DNA from: a virus | DNA: 20,306 bases | Strand: one strand, 5' to 3' | Virus record (IMG/VR): IMGVR_UViG_3300020428_000121 | Span: 1 to 20,306 of that record | Part shown: positions 1,567 to 19,381 of the stretch, in pieces | Layout: each line of letters opens with the position of its first letter | How positions within the stretch are numbered: position 1 is the first letter of the stretch | The notes under the pieces: generated by a model | What the model was told of the DNA's origin: nothing | Seen by the model: only the letters and a program-made list of their open reading frames with translations | Databases searched by the model: none | Translations under genes and position numbers: made by a program

Positions 1567-1589
1567 TTAACTTCCTTTCCTTAAAAGTT

Positions 1590-1657
1590 ATTGCTCACTT
1601 GAACCCCTACACCACCTTTGTGGAACTTTACTGTAGGCCAACCACCTTAAGAGCAAT
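1590..1657 (-). other. Potentially structured 5' leader RNA
   Basis: The leader between the promoter at 1676-1704 and the gene starting at 1566 contains nested inverted repeats. An outer stem pairs ATTGCTC (1657-1651) with GAGCAAT (1596-1590). A middle stem pairs CCTACA (1637-1632) with TGTAGG (1611-1606). An inner hairpin pairs CCAC (1623-1620) with GTGG (1615-1612) around a 4-nt loop. The SD of the downstream gene lies just after the outer stem. It matches no riboswitch class I can recall. It may be a regulatory leader or an RNase-protecting structure. Confidence 0.4.
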
Positions 1658-1660
1658 TTT

Positions 1661-1721
1661 TCATTTTATAAGTATATTATACCATATAACGAATCAATTG
1701 TAAACCATAAAATGCATTTTT
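1661..1721 (-). repeat. Promoter-cassette repeat, copy 1
   Basis: About 61 bp closely resembling 2393-2453. The core 1676-1704 is identical to 2408-2436 over 29 bp and contains the whole promoter. The flanks toward the gene (1661-1675 versus 2393-2407) differ at three positions. The flanks upstream of -35 differ at four positions over 17 bp, and both keep a TGCAttttt block. Confidence 0.85.
1676..1704 (-). promoter_or_regulatory. Sigma70 extended -10 early promoter
   Basis: Minus strand TTTACA (1704-1699), 17-bp spacer ending TATGG, TATAAT (1681-1676). Predicted start about 1669, giving a message beginning AUAAAAUG, in which a five-codon mini-frame (M-K-N-C-S-stop, 1664-1647) starts 5 nt from the 5' end. 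It drives the two small membrane protein genes. Confidence 0.85.
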
Positions 1722-8518: not shown

Positions 8519-8904
8519 AGTTCCCACTCATTTTTTTCTTTAAATGGTATAATCTTAATTTGTCTCAAAGGAGCTTGATTTTCAACCATAGCACTATTTT
8601 CTATGTTAATAAGTCCCCAATCACTCATAAGAGTAGTAATTGTATTACGTCTTCCAATATCAGTTTCATCTAGGTTAGCTTTTTTTCCATCAAGTAAAAA
8701 AAGCTCTTTAAAATGCACAATGAAATATCGACCTTGTTTATGCAGAATATGACAAGATTGAAATAGCTTTTTTTCTTTACGAGAAGCTACTCCTATTCTT
8801 GTTAGTGTTTCTCTTACTTTTAAGAAGTCGTCAGGTTCTCGAAGAGTCACCTCGAGCATTTTGCTCGGATCCCATTCTACTAATTTATTTTCTTGTTGTT
8901 CCAC
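8485..8904 (-). CDS. regA: RegA translational repressor
   Basis: A homologue of T4 RegA, which binds initiation regions of early mRNAs and blocks their translation. MLEVTLREPDDFLKVRETLTR, SCHILHKQGRYFIVHFKELF, DWGLINIE and KEKNEWELCPKYNIGN align with T4 RegA along its length. The start is uncertain: GTG 8904 (139 aa; AGAAGG upstream, overlapping gp62 by 20 nt) adds 15 residues, whereas ATG 8859 (124 aa) matches the usual N terminus but has only a weak SD. T4 RegA represses genes 44, 45 and itself, all neighbours here, so autogenous control of this operon is likely. Confidence 0.93.
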   Translation of the reverse strand: MEQQENKLVEWDPSKMLEVTLREPDDFLKVRETLTRIGVASRKEKKLFQSCHILHKQGRYFIVHFKELFLLDGKKANLDETDIGRRNTITTLMSDWGLINIENSAMVENQAPLRQIKIIPFKEKNEWELCPKYNIGNKT

Positions 8905-14166: not shown

Positions 14167-14302
14167 GTAACTCTGCCTCGTAATGTTTTTTCTGATGTTT
14201 TATAAGACAAGCAATATAACGAAATGACCTATCGCACTCAATACAATTAGCGTATCCATAATGTCTAAAAAACGATTTGTCATACTCTTTATACCATCTC
14301 AT
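14147..14302 (-). CDS. Tiny classical C2H2 zinc-finger protein (51 aa)
   Basis: A gene in the gap between gp55 and gp47. Residues 20-40 read C20-x2-C23-x3-F27-x5-L33-x2-H36-x3-H40 (CIECDRSF...CLIKHQKKH), the full C2H2 consensus including the hydrophobic core positions. The N-terminal 19 residues are aromatic and basic (MRWYKEYDKSFFRHYGYAN); the tail is charged. It is probably a nucleic-acid-binding or protein-docking finger. ATG at 14302 overlaps the gp55 stop (ATGA), so it should be translated with the late sigma factor; its end overlaps the gp47 start. Such small proteins are easily missed by length cut-offs. The role is unknown. Confidence 0.75.
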   Translation of the reverse strand: MRWYKEYDKSFFRHYGYANCIECDRSFRYIACLIKHQKKHYEAELRENRNT

Positions 14303-14895
14303 TCTGAAAAGAATTCTTGGAGATCTGAATCAACTGATTTTGATCTACGTTTCTTTTTCTTTTGTATTGACGCATATTCTTTAATAGCAAAATCTTGTGA
14401 TTTTACCTTTCCGATTCTATCTTTCAAAGTATCTATAAACATTCCTGCTTGTGTAACAGCAGCTTGATTATCATCTCCAATATCAACAAAATCTTCAAGT
14501 CCAGATTGTGACAAATATTTAAATTTAATTTCTTGTTGCTTTTTTTCTTTAGCGATTCTTCTTAAAAACGCATACCAACTTATTTGTGTAAAATAAGCAA
14601 AAGCATTTGGTTTACCTGTTCGCGTAGCGGTTTCTAAATTATAATTCTCAATAGCACGAAGACAATTTTCAACTGCATCCATCACCATTTCTTCACGATA
14701 CGTATATCTAATAAAGTTTGATTTGTGTGATAGACCTTCTGCAATTTTTAAGAAGCATGTAGCAATATAATCAGGTACTAGAGGAAGACTATTTGCTTTC
14801 TTTTCTTTAGCTTCATTTATCACTTTAACATAATCAACAACTGCTTGTGAAAACTCCGCATTATTGACATAATGTGGTCTTTCTTTTGGTTTCAT
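14299..14895 (-). CDS. 55: Late-transcription sigma factor (T4 gp55)
   Basis: A 198-aa sigma factor (T4 185 aa) that directs host RNA polymerase to TATAAATA late promoters. YREEMVMDAVENCLRAIENYNLE... NAFAYFTQISWYAFLRRIAKEKKQ is the sigma region-2-like core. A basic stretch (KKKKRRSKS) is followed by the C-terminal tail DSDLQEFFSE, similar to the gp43 tail, SSLEDFFA; in T4 the gp55 C terminus binds gp45, and the same role is likely here. ATG at 14895 has GGAG six bases upstream; a TTG frame start at 14907 is not used because it overlaps that SD. A TATAAATA site is present in the window before the virion gene at 19930. Confidence 0.95.
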   Translation of the reverse strand: MKPKERPHYVNNAEFSQAVVDYVKVINEAKEKKANSLPLVPDYIATCFLKIAEGLSHKSNFIRYTYREEMVMDAVENCLRAIENYNLETATRTGKPNAFAYFTQISWYAFLRRIAKEKKQQEIKFKYLSQSGLEDFVDIGDDNQAAVTQAGMFIDTLKDRIGKVKSQDFAIKEYASIQKKKKRRSKSVDSDLQEFFSE

Positions 14896-14920: not shown

Positions 14921-14949
14921 ATTATACCACCTTCAACGCCAAATGTAAA
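14921..14949 (-). promoter_or_regulatory. Sigma70 extended -10 promoter for the gp55-gp47-gp46 operon
   Basis: Minus strand TTTACA (14949-14944), 17-bp spacer ending GGTGG, TATAAT (14926-14921). Predicted start about 14914, 19 nt before ATG 14895. A T-rich block (TTTTTTCC) precedes the -35. Confidence 0.85.
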
Positions 14950-15016: not shown

Positions 15017-15045
15017 TTTACAAACGGCACAAACTGTGGTATAAT
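15017..15045 (+). promoter_or_regulatory. Sigma70 extended -10 promoter on the opposite strand
   Basis: Plus strand TTTACA (15017-15022), 17-bp spacer ending TGTGG, TATAAT (15040-15045); the same architecture as the seven minus-strand promoters. Predicted start about 15052. It faces into the 3' end of the minus-strand gene at 15074-15529, with no credible downstream protein gene. Confidence 0.8.
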
Positions 15046-15051
15046 AAAAGA

Positions 15052-15121
15052 GGTTGCTGAGGGAAGGGATATACTAATTTAGCGTATCTGATCCTGGGTA
15101 TATCCATGGGCCTTTAATTAT
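15052..15121 (+). ncRNA. Candidate antisense / small RNA
   Basis: Predicted product of the promoter at 15017-15045. The first frames contain no SD-ATG-ORF; the first ATG (15106) opens only a three-codon frame. An 8-bp perfect inverted repeat, GGATATAC (15067-15074) and GTATATCC (15098-15105), could form a stem with a 23-nt loop, followed after the stem by a T-rich stretch from about 15112. The end coordinate is approximate. The RNA would be complementary to the last codons and stop of the gene at 15074-15529. Confidence 0.35.
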
Positions 15122-15529
15122 TTTACCTCCGTCTGAATCACACTCGGCTGCTAAATCATCGATGTTTACCTCAACTCCAACCTTTTCTTTAAAATATTTC
15201 TCCATCTCTTTGCGAGTCTGATCAATATTACTCAATTCATGATCTTGAAATAAATCTAAATTTTTCTTAAATTCAACTATAAGATCTTTCGAAGGTGTAG
15301 TTTCACAAACAATATTATTAGGATTTAATATTTGCACATGAGTATGATCGCCTTGATATAATACCCATGGTCTGAATGCAAAAAATCTTTGACCGCTCAT
15401 CATATTTTCCATACTTACGATTTTTAAAGTATTTCTAATCACTAATGAATGATCCGAATCTGCGAAATCTACAACTTCCGTTATAATCTCATCACCGCTT
15501 GTCAATTTAAATTGTCTTAATGCAATCAT
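15074..15529 (-). CDS. Conserved T4-like phage protein (151 aa), unknown function
   Basis: Begins MIALRQFKLTSGDEIITEVVDF. The N-terminal 70 residues look like a small beta-barrel (alternating strands LVIRNTLKIVSME, RFFAFRPWVLYQ, VQILNPNNIVCET) reminiscent of Sm-like folds; the C-terminal half is helical and acidic. Proteins of this type sit near uvsW in other marine T4-like phages as I recall, without known function. ATG at 15529 is 1 nt after the upstream stop (TAATATG), with no SD, so re-initiation by coupled ribosomes is likely. Its 3' end lies under the candidate antisense RNA. Confidence 0.75.
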   Translation of the reverse strand: MIALRQFKLTSGDEIITEVVDFADSDHSLVIRNTLKIVSMENMMSGQRFFAFRPWVLYQGDHTHVQILNPNNIVCETTPSKDLIVEFKKNLDLFQDHELSNIDQTRKEMEKYFKEKVGVEVNIDDLAAECDSDGGKIIKGPWIYPGSDTLN

Positions 15530-15530
15530 A

Positions 15531-16139
15531 TTATTCTAGAAGAGTTGCGACTAAATGTACTCGATTCTCTTCTCCTCCGTTAAAAAAGTTATGGTAAACT
15601 CTGTTATCAGTAATATATATAGTGCCGTCTGCTATCATATGAAAAGCCTCATCTTCAATCACCATTCTGCTTCCATAGTTGGTTTTTATTGGTATATGTA
15701 TTCTTCTTTCAGGATCTCGGTGCCAACTTAAACATGATCTCGGCGGCTTCATTAAAAATCGCGCGCGTCCAATGCTCCACTTAGAAGCGAGAATATTAAC
15801 AACTTCTTCTGCATACGTACCTTTAAATTCTGGACATATTTCATTGTATTCTGCTTCATCCACATAAGGAAGTCTTTCTTCTTCTTCAAACTTATCGCTC
15901 GGGTAGGTCCAATATTTTCCTCTAACGTTTCCACCTGTTACAGAATTTGGATCTCCAATTTTTCTATTAATGCAAATAGCATTAAAATCGACAAGACTGC
16001 TATCATCAGTCGAATGCTCGTGCGTGCGTAGAAACTCATTATAATCTTCGTAAAGCTTTTCAACATTTATTATTTTTTGTAAAGTTTTTTCAAGATAACG
16101 GTATTTCGTATTCACGATAGTCAAATCGTTCTTTGTCAT
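15531..16139 (-). CDS. 2-oxoglutarate/Fe(II) oxygenase, Asp/Asn beta-hydroxylase-like
   Basis: A 202-aa protein. The catalytic core is SWHRDPERRIHIPI (H140-x-D142), then YHNFFNGGEENRVHLVATL (H183 iron ligand, R193 for 2-oxoglutarate), with a typical double-stranded beta-helix spacing. The pattern HxD...RIHIPI...H...R is that of the aspartyl/asparaginyl beta-hydroxylase branch. Marine T4-like phages commonly carry 2OG oxygenases; the substrate, protein or nucleotide, cannot be read. ATG at 16139 has AAAGGG nine bases upstream and overlaps the uvsW end by 50 nt. Confidence 0.82.
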   Translation of the reverse strand: MTKNDLTIVNTKYRYLEKTLQKIINVEKLYEDYNEFLRTHEHSTDDSSLVDFNAICINRKIGDPNSVTGGNVRGKYWTYPSDKFEEEERLPYVDEAEYNEICPEFKGTYAEEVVNILASKWSIGRARFLMKPPRSCLSWHRDPERRIHIPIKTNYGSRMVIEDEAFHMIADGTIYITDNRVYHNFFNGGEENRVHLVATLLE

Positions 16140-17547
16140 ATATTTTTACCCTTTCTGCAGCATGCTGCAAAACAAAATTCTTTTTATTTTTCCATGATAT
16201 GTCGTCAGCAATGTCATAAAGTTTAGTAGGTTTTCCATCGTCGCTTTTTCTTAGACCTCTACCTATTGATTGTAAAACTCTTATTTGAGATTTCGATGGG
16301 CTAGCGAATACTATATTATGAAGATTACGAATATTAACGCCTGTAGAAAAAGTTCCCATACTAGCAACAACAATAGCGTCAGTTTGTTTTTCAGTTATAT
16401 GTCGTATTGCTTCTCTATCTGAAGCAGCCACTTCACCGCTTACAAAAAAGACTTTTCTATTTTGATCAACATTGTCTTTAATTAGTTTAAATAAAACCTT
16501 TCCATGTTTTTCTACAAATTGGAATAAGACTAATGTATTCCCTTTTTGATCAATTGTCAAATTCTTTATAAAGTTATTTCTCTTTTCATTAGTAACAATA
16601 TAATCAACTTCATCTTGATAATCTTTTTTAAAGTCTTTTCTTATTTGGTCTTGATATTTTAACTTAATTATATTTATCTTCAATTTAGCTAAAGTATCGC
16701 TATCTTGTAAATCTTTTGTTGTAGTTGCATTCCATACGCGACCAAATAATCCTTCTAACACAAGTTTATGAGTCTGTGTACCATCTAACGTTCCTGTAGT
16801 TCCAATCCTATAAGAAGTTTCTGTGCATTTATTCATTAACGTAGTAAGTGATTTTGATTTAAATCCATGGCATTCGTCACCAACCACTAAATCAAAATCT
16901 TTAAACCAAGCTTTAGGAAATTTATATATTGATTGCCATGTGCTTATCACAACCTTTGAATATTCTATGTCTTTATCTTTTCCCGAATAAATCCTATGGC
17001 TTTTATCATAACCATAATTACAAAAATCACCATGCATTTGCTCAACTAAAGATGTAGTAGGTACTATTATAAGCACCTTGCCTTTCATATATTGAGCTAA
17101 AATATAAATTATAAGCGATTTACCAGAACCCGTGGGCGAAAGAATAATTGCTCTTTTTACAGCTATTGCTTTTTTAATAGCTTCATATTGATAGTCTCTA
17201 ACCTTAAAAGGTAACTTAAGATTCTCAATATGCTTAAAAAGATCATCATCAGACACATGCTCAACATCCCACGGCGATCCATAATTAGTTTTTTCTGTAT
17301 CAATTAAATAACCGCGTTTAGATGCAAAGTTAGTTACATATGTGAATAATCCTACTGGCAGTTCTTGAGATTGAGAGTTATAGAGTCGTATTCTTCCGTC
17401 CCATACTTTGTTTCTGTAGGCAGGCATAAACCTGTAGCCGGGTACATAGAAACAAAAAAAGTCGGAAAGTTCTTCGCCAACGCCTCTATCACATTGTATT
17501 CGGAGTGTTGATTCATTAACCTTACTGATGGTAAGCTTATCCGCCAC
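16090..17547 (-). CDS. uvsW: UvsW recombination/branch-migration helicase
   Basis: SF2 helicase of 485 aa (T4 503) that unwinds branched and R-loop intermediates, moving replication from origin-dependent to recombination-dependent mode. The N-terminal UvsW-specific region contains FFCFYVPGYRFMPAYRNKVWDGRIRLY. Motif I is SPTGSGKS (137-144), motif II GDECHG, motif III-like IGTTGTLDGT, and motif VI SIGRGLRKS. The start is GTG 17547, which gives an N terminus aligned with T4 UvsW; a GGAG lies 11 nt upstream, inside the uvsY end (11-nt overlap). Confidence 0.95.
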   Translation of the reverse strand: MADKLTISKVNESTLRIQCDRGVGEELSDFFCFYVPGYRFMPAYRNKVWDGRIRLYNSQSQELPVGLFTYVTNFASKRGYLIDTEKTNYGSPWDVEHVSDDDLFKHIENLKLPFKVRDYQYEAIKKAIAVKRAIILSPTGSGKSLIIYILAQYMKGKVLIIVPTTSLVEQMHGDFCNYGYDKSHRIYSGKDKDIEYSKVVISTWQSIYKFPKAWFKDFDLVVGDECHGFKSKSLTTLMNKCTETSYRIGTTGTLDGTQTHKLVLEGLFGRVWNATTTKDLQDSDTLAKLKINIIKLKYQDQIRKDFKKDYQDEVDYIVTNEKRNNFIKNLTIDQKGNTLVLFQFVEKHGKVLFKLIKDNVDQNRKVFFVSGEVAASDREAIRHITEKQTDAIVVASMGTFSTGVNIRNLHNIVFASPSKSQIRVLQSIGRGLRKSDDGKPTKLYDIADDISWKNKKNFVLQHAAERVKIYDKERFDYREYEIPLS

Positions 17548-19352: not shown

Positions 19353-19381
19353 ATTATACCACAGTTCTTTTAATTTGTAAA
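19353..19381 (-). promoter_or_regulatory. Sigma70 extended -10 promoter, probably leaderless
   Basis: Minus strand TTTACA (19381-19376), 17-bp spacer ending TGTGG, TATAAT (19358-19353). Six bases separate the -10 from ATG 19346, so the standard start falls on the A of ATG. It marks the border between the late virion genes and the early replication region. Confidence 0.85.

Follow-up and report, generated by a model that had tools for sequence, protein, structure and literature searches.

A conserved early promoter facing uvsW in marine T4-like phages as a candidate R-loop replication origin

The T4 replication origins oriF and oriG each consist of a promoter and an unwinding element and form R-loops, which the T4 helicase UvsW clears late (PMC3016281). 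Another origin, oriE, uses an early promoter, and oriE, oriF and oriG all lie at strand switches of transcription and of composition or skew (PMC3016281). In the T4 record, uvsW occupies 112677-114440 (plus strand) and oriF is annotated at 115321, 881 bp past the uvsW 3' end; its primer RNA is the leftward uvsY transcript, which converges on uvsW. This origin was defined by an assay of phage-dependent plasmid replication. Cyanomyoviruses lack motA (PMC2984593), and the same source reports a single theta origin predicted for cyanophage Syn9. Apart from this prediction, the parts of the literature accessible to us contained no mapped origin for the Kyanoviridae. For cyanophage S-PM2, PMC5931967 describes CfrI, an antisense RNA at psbA.

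We analyzed a 20,306-nt stretch of viral DNA (IMG/VR record IMGVR_UViG_3300020428_000121, hereafter the window). On its plus strand, at 15017-15045, lies an early sigma70-type promoter with the -35 hexamer TTTACA (15017-15022), a 17-nt spacer ending in the extended -10 motif TGTGG, and the -10 hexamer TATAAT (15040-15045). Standard sigma70 spacing and the alignment of the elements place the predicted transcription start at a G, position 15052, after the 6-nt discriminator AAAAGA. Seven early promoters of the same design lie on the minus strand (first hexamers starting at 19381, 14949, 11401, 7096, 2436, 1704 and 1246), and all of them precede genes. The site at 15017-15045 is the only one of this design on the plus strand of the window; a further TGGTATAAT on that strand, at 8545, is not accompanied by a -35 hexamer. 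Downstream of it we found no plus-strand gene, only short open reading frames (ORFs) antisense to real genes, and from the promoter as far as 17134 the plus strand has no predicted intrinsic terminator. A preliminary description of this locus had reported a plus-strand promoter like the others and unique on its strand, and its coordinates proved correct. The ORF listing also agrees with its statement that the promoter meets the gene at 15074-15529 tail-first, with no protein gene after it, and the comparisons below support its reading of a host-type early promoter that would start a noncoding RNA convergent with that gene.

The neighbors of this promoter are all on the minus strand. On one side lies gp55, the late sigma factor gene (14299-14895, with a likely ATG start at 14895), with its own divergent early promoter at 14921-14949. 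On the other side lies the opposing gene at 15074-15529, here called X, which encodes a small protein of PHROG 471 ('methylamine utilization') that resembles Sm-like proteins with a score under Pfam's cut-off. Beyond X is a uvsW homologue (16090-17547). Its 3' end lies 1038 bp from ~15052, the predicted start, and the predicted transcript points at it. Many of the X proteins encoded beside the promoter in the window and its relatives (L003-L082) seem to have a common C-terminal tail, D-S-x-NVI-K/H-F ... K-D-x-L/V-H, in a by-eye reading of the antisense strand made with no alignment; the remainder of the protein differs.

In the two closest relatives (L001 and L002) the promoter is 95% identical to that of the window, and positions 15047-15073, the conserved noncoding initial transcribed region, are identical at 27 of 27 and 26 of 27 positions. 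The flanks have diverged: identity is 64% in the gp55-side spacer, 67% in the gp55 promoter region and 74-81% in the opposing gene, whose protein is 76-77% identical to that of the window. Because the promoter and the next 27 nt are near-identical between relatives while both flanks have diverged, their conservation exceeds chance. By these identities the conserved unit (hereafter the element) is the promoter plus ~27 transcribed bases; it is more conserved than coding DNA, and its end coincides with the opposing gene's stop codon.

We took 80 gp55 loci from viral contigs, of which two (L046 and L062) end at the site, leaving 78 evaluable. A counterpart of the element was found in 77 of these 78 marine T4-like contigs, many of which are near-duplicates (63 nonredundant elements remain after pooling with the cultured phages); L061 has only a degenerate candidate. 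At 72 contig loci the promoter faces away from gp55 within 330 bases, the usual distance being 60-180 bp. At five others (L040, L042, L064, L076 and L079) the element stays beside the opposing gene, with at least one gene between it and gp55. The inserted gene in four of these five resembles the cytidylyltransferase at the other end of the window. The element was also present in all 13 cultured Kyanoviridae genomes examined (C48C1, Mosig, AG-345-L05, ACG-2014b, P-SSM2, S-SSM7, Syn30, Syn9, S-PM2, P-HM2, HTVC008M, S-RSM4 and P-SSM4), C48C1 and AG-345-L05 being sequenced genomes whose records name no cultured host. It lies near 120.76 kb in P-HM2, near 123.7 kb in Syn9 and near 84.5 kb in S-PM2d. 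It is present in S-SKS1 too, and in Sinorhizobium phage phiM12 (genus Emdodecavirus). In phiM12 (L237, 864-898, plus strand) the order is uvsW-X-element-gp55, and a perfect 5-bp dyad, CAGGA-ATG-TCCTG, follows the -10 hexamer. When seven whole genomes were scanned for the exact pattern, the element was the sole opposite-strand match in six, and with a leave-one-out matrix it was the top opposite-strand match in 11 of 13 genomes (exceptions Mosig and P-SSM4). Wherever relatives carry the element it diverges from gp55 and is aimed at the uvsW 3' end. The preliminary description had staked its reading on the promoter being present in close relatives, as it is; judged on sequence, marine T4-like phages carry the promoter as a fixed cis element. 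We found no report of it in the portions of the literature available to us.

The transcribed part of the element has a composition of its own. A purine- and G-rich block, GAGGGAAGGGA, occupies 15059-15069 (plus strand) and is followed at about +19 by a TATAC motif (15070-15074), which 54% of contig elements have between +18 and +25, compared with 2% of shuffles. The first 24 transcribed bases hold on average 9.2 G in 50 nonredundant contig elements, compared with 5.0 at 134 gene-directed promoters of the same contigs (Mann-Whitney p 3e-23), and GGG occurs there in 92% of the elements and 2% of the gene promoters. Such a start is predicted to favor RNA-DNA hybrids: with published nearest-neighbor values, the hybrid-minus-duplex energy from +1 to +25 is -4.65 kcal/mol for contig elements and -0.83 for control promoters, and the hybrid is favored by 6.0 kcal/mol in the window's own element. 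The G-rich, hybrid-favoring start is milder in most cultured phages and absent in Mosig and P-SSM4; by hybrid energy it is also missing in HTVC008M and P-HM2. We considered whether the block leads a small protein and rejected this, as start codons are not enriched after it and the ORFs are short (median 17 aa).

A short dyad of at least 5 bp surrounds the predicted start in 28% of elements and 3% of control promoters. We did not retain it as a 5' RNA hairpin, as its 5' half precedes the predicted start and may not be in the RNA. We give the dyad little weight because the initial sequence AACnCTGTnAGGGTT of cyanophage elements is also found at gene-directed early promoters of cyanophages. Early promoters that share the discriminator and this initial sequence lie, for instance, at S-PM2 162723, ACG-2014b 12627 and Syn9 52727 (numbered along the gp55 strand), and AACnCTGTnAGGGTT is possibly an extended early-promoter signature of cyanophages.

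The preliminary description had further suggested a small structured RNA built on an 8-bp inverted repeat. The repeat is indeed present (15067-15074 and 15098-15105, plus strand) but amounts to no more than chance gives. Its right arm is made up of codons of the opposing gene; L001 and L002 have GTAAATCC at this place, which disrupts the pairing. In folding, the predicted RNA showed no advantage over shuffled sequences (85 nt, z +0.55; 59 nt, z -1.45). With neither conservation nor excess stability, a structured RNA on this repeat was ruled out. Searches of the window and nine relatives gave no Rfam match, and no tRNA or tmRNA was found. Elsewhere in the window, the ~100-nt leader at 1567-1670 (minus strand), between the promoter at 1704-1676 and an ORF for a predicted 49-aa membrane protein (1417-1566), forms a stem (UUGCUC...GAGCAA) when folded, the z over 250 nt being -1.9.

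The preliminary description had also proposed an antisense RNA that pairs with the last codons of X. A cis-antisense RNA would have an opposite-strand promoter overlapping the 3' end of its target, as is the case for X, and a target conserved together with that promoter, which X is not. The gene overlapped at its 3' end is in most cases one for an Sm-like protein of PHROG 471, but in several lineages this neighbor has been replaced while the promoter and the first ~30 transcribed bases were kept; L013, L014 and L018 have a common element sequence with different gene ends, and so do L036 and L058. Because the neighbor is swapped between phages and the element stays, we abandoned an antisense RNA specific to X as unlikely.

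The explanation that we favor, with a probability of roughly 0.45, is that the element is an R-loop replication origin, a marine counterpart of T4 oriF. The comparison with oriF suggests this reading, which is absent from the preliminary description. Host RNA polymerase would start an early RNA at ~15052, against the coding direction of the genome, and the G-rich first ~20 bases of the RNA would stay paired with the template, forming an R-loop. The 3' end of this RNA could then serve to prime the first leading strand, and loading of the primosome could be enabled by the displaced strand. Late in infection the origin would be shut off as gp55 directs the polymerase elsewhere and R-loops are unwound by UvsW. 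Our main reason to think that the transcript itself is functional is that the Kyanoviridae keep the convergent promoter with no gene behind it, uvsY lying beyond uvsW. We consider it possible, and put it forward tentatively, that the origin is common to T4-like phages, with its place and orientation behind uvsW kept, and that in the marine lineages the primer RNA lost its gene and now serves solely as a noncoding RNA, with a start that is rich in G and forms hybrids.

Composition offers weak support for an origin. The third-position cumulative GC skew is low at the element, with only 0.9-21.5% of each of the 13 genomes lower. The skew minimum lies within 30 kb of the element in 12 of 13 genomes, and the maximum is roughly opposite in most; in AG-345-L05, where two minima are nearly equal, one script placed the minimum at +13 kb and another at -55 kb. 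We dropped the skew as proof of an origin and weigh it lightly, because the element sits at the border of late and early genes, which confounds skew with gene class, because skew at C/T sites does not follow the element, and because gene order is common to the genomes. We accordingly set aside the p-value pooled over them.

The same border invites another explanation, in which early RNA running into X and uvsW silences the late side, or prevents transcripts from reading through into the early gp55 operon, for as long as sigma70 has not been displaced by gp55. It extends to uvsW the convergent transcription that the preliminary description had offered as an alternative. We regard it as the main rival, less likely than the origin, and both could be true together. 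It would suit the position of the element between late structural and early genes (late-promoter motifs are 3-9 kb away to one side, 4-50 kb to the other), the fact that the next conserved gene faced is always uvsW, and the predicted run to 17134 with no terminator; premature UvsW, moreover, would remove origin R-loops (PMC3016281). Interference needs the promoter alone, however, which leaves unexplained the G-rich first ~27 bases conserved above coding DNA, and both the neighbor and the uvsW distance vary (0.5-2.6 kb from uvsW end to gp55 start across contigs). Those bases would be central if the functional part were the first ~30-60 nt of a short trans-acting RNA, either as a G-rich stretch for pairing or by acting as a decoy, with ribosomes or an RNA-binding protein such as the Sm-like X as its target. 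The conserved purine block with TATAC, the dyad and the likeness of X to Sm proteins all speak for such an RNA, but it would have no terminator, Rfam match or stable fold, the dyad may lie partly outside it, and its exact sequence drifts between lineages as a seed would not; we judge it improbable.

Two further explanations place the function outside the plus-strand RNA. Back-to-back promoters might tune gp55, the divergent RNA being a by-product, which would fit the constant divergence from gp55 at a short distance; yet where genes intervene (the five contigs named above) the element stays beside X, and we find this very unlikely. Least credible to us is that the strip acts on the other strand, for instance as a C-rich site where the uvsW-X message is terminated or processed. 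Its minus-strand reading is indeed C/T-rich followed by T-runs, but a conserved, correctly spaced plus-strand -35/-10 pair would then go unexplained, and phages of cyanobacteria, hosts not known to have Rho, keep the element.

If the origin reading is right, a shared T4-like origin would be the first to be located in the Kyanoviridae, a family that ranks with the most abundant viruses of the ocean, and the element offers a precise ~60-bp candidate. Should convergent transcription be the function instead, the element would still be the source of a noncoding transcript common to the whole family, placed where late genes give way to early ones.

The comparison with T4 is closest for oriF, also called ori(uvsY), and in part for oriG. 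As in T4-type R-loop origins, a promoter is predicted to direct a transcript into the candidate origin. Both have a promoter with a TGGTATAAT start, and the T4 oriF promoter also reads GTGGTATAAT; both lie beyond the uvsW 3' end, ~0.9-1 kb off, with a transcript convergent on uvsW, and both are near uvsY/uvsW where transcription shifts. A skew shift marks oriF, and third-position skew has its minimum near the marine element in most of the 13 genomes, a pattern confounded by gene class and common gene order. Opposite-strand genes converging on uvsW were also seen in the T4-like phages of Vibrio and Acinetobacter that were examined. The differences are equally clear. The marine element has a sigma70 -35 hexamer (TTTACA, TTGACA or TGTACA) where oriF and oriG have the MotA box of a middle-mode promoter; its transcript has no gene, whereas that of oriF is the uvsY message; in the Kyanoviridae uvsY is on the other side of uvsW; and the start is G-rich in most marine elements, which the oriF transcript is not. 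The A+T-rich downstream element of oriF and oriG was not found around the marine element, where A+T is 0.63-0.66 downstream, equal to background, and 0.74-0.78 upstream. Because the MotA promoter, a defining feature of oriF, is absent, we do not call the element a proven oriF member; we propose that it functions like oriF and is probably its positional counterpart. T4 oriE differs in its location and its iterons, none of which were noted here. CfrI of S-PM2 is likewise a noncoding antisense RNA in a Kyanoviridae phage, but belongs to the psbA locus, whereas the present element also occurs in phages of non-photosynthetic hosts. In ColE1 RNA II and at mitochondrial LSP-CSBII, a promoter followed by a G-rich transcribed block gives a persistent hybrid that serves as a replication primer, and the element has the same arrangement of promoter and G-rich transcribed block, a likeness that we offer as an analogy only.
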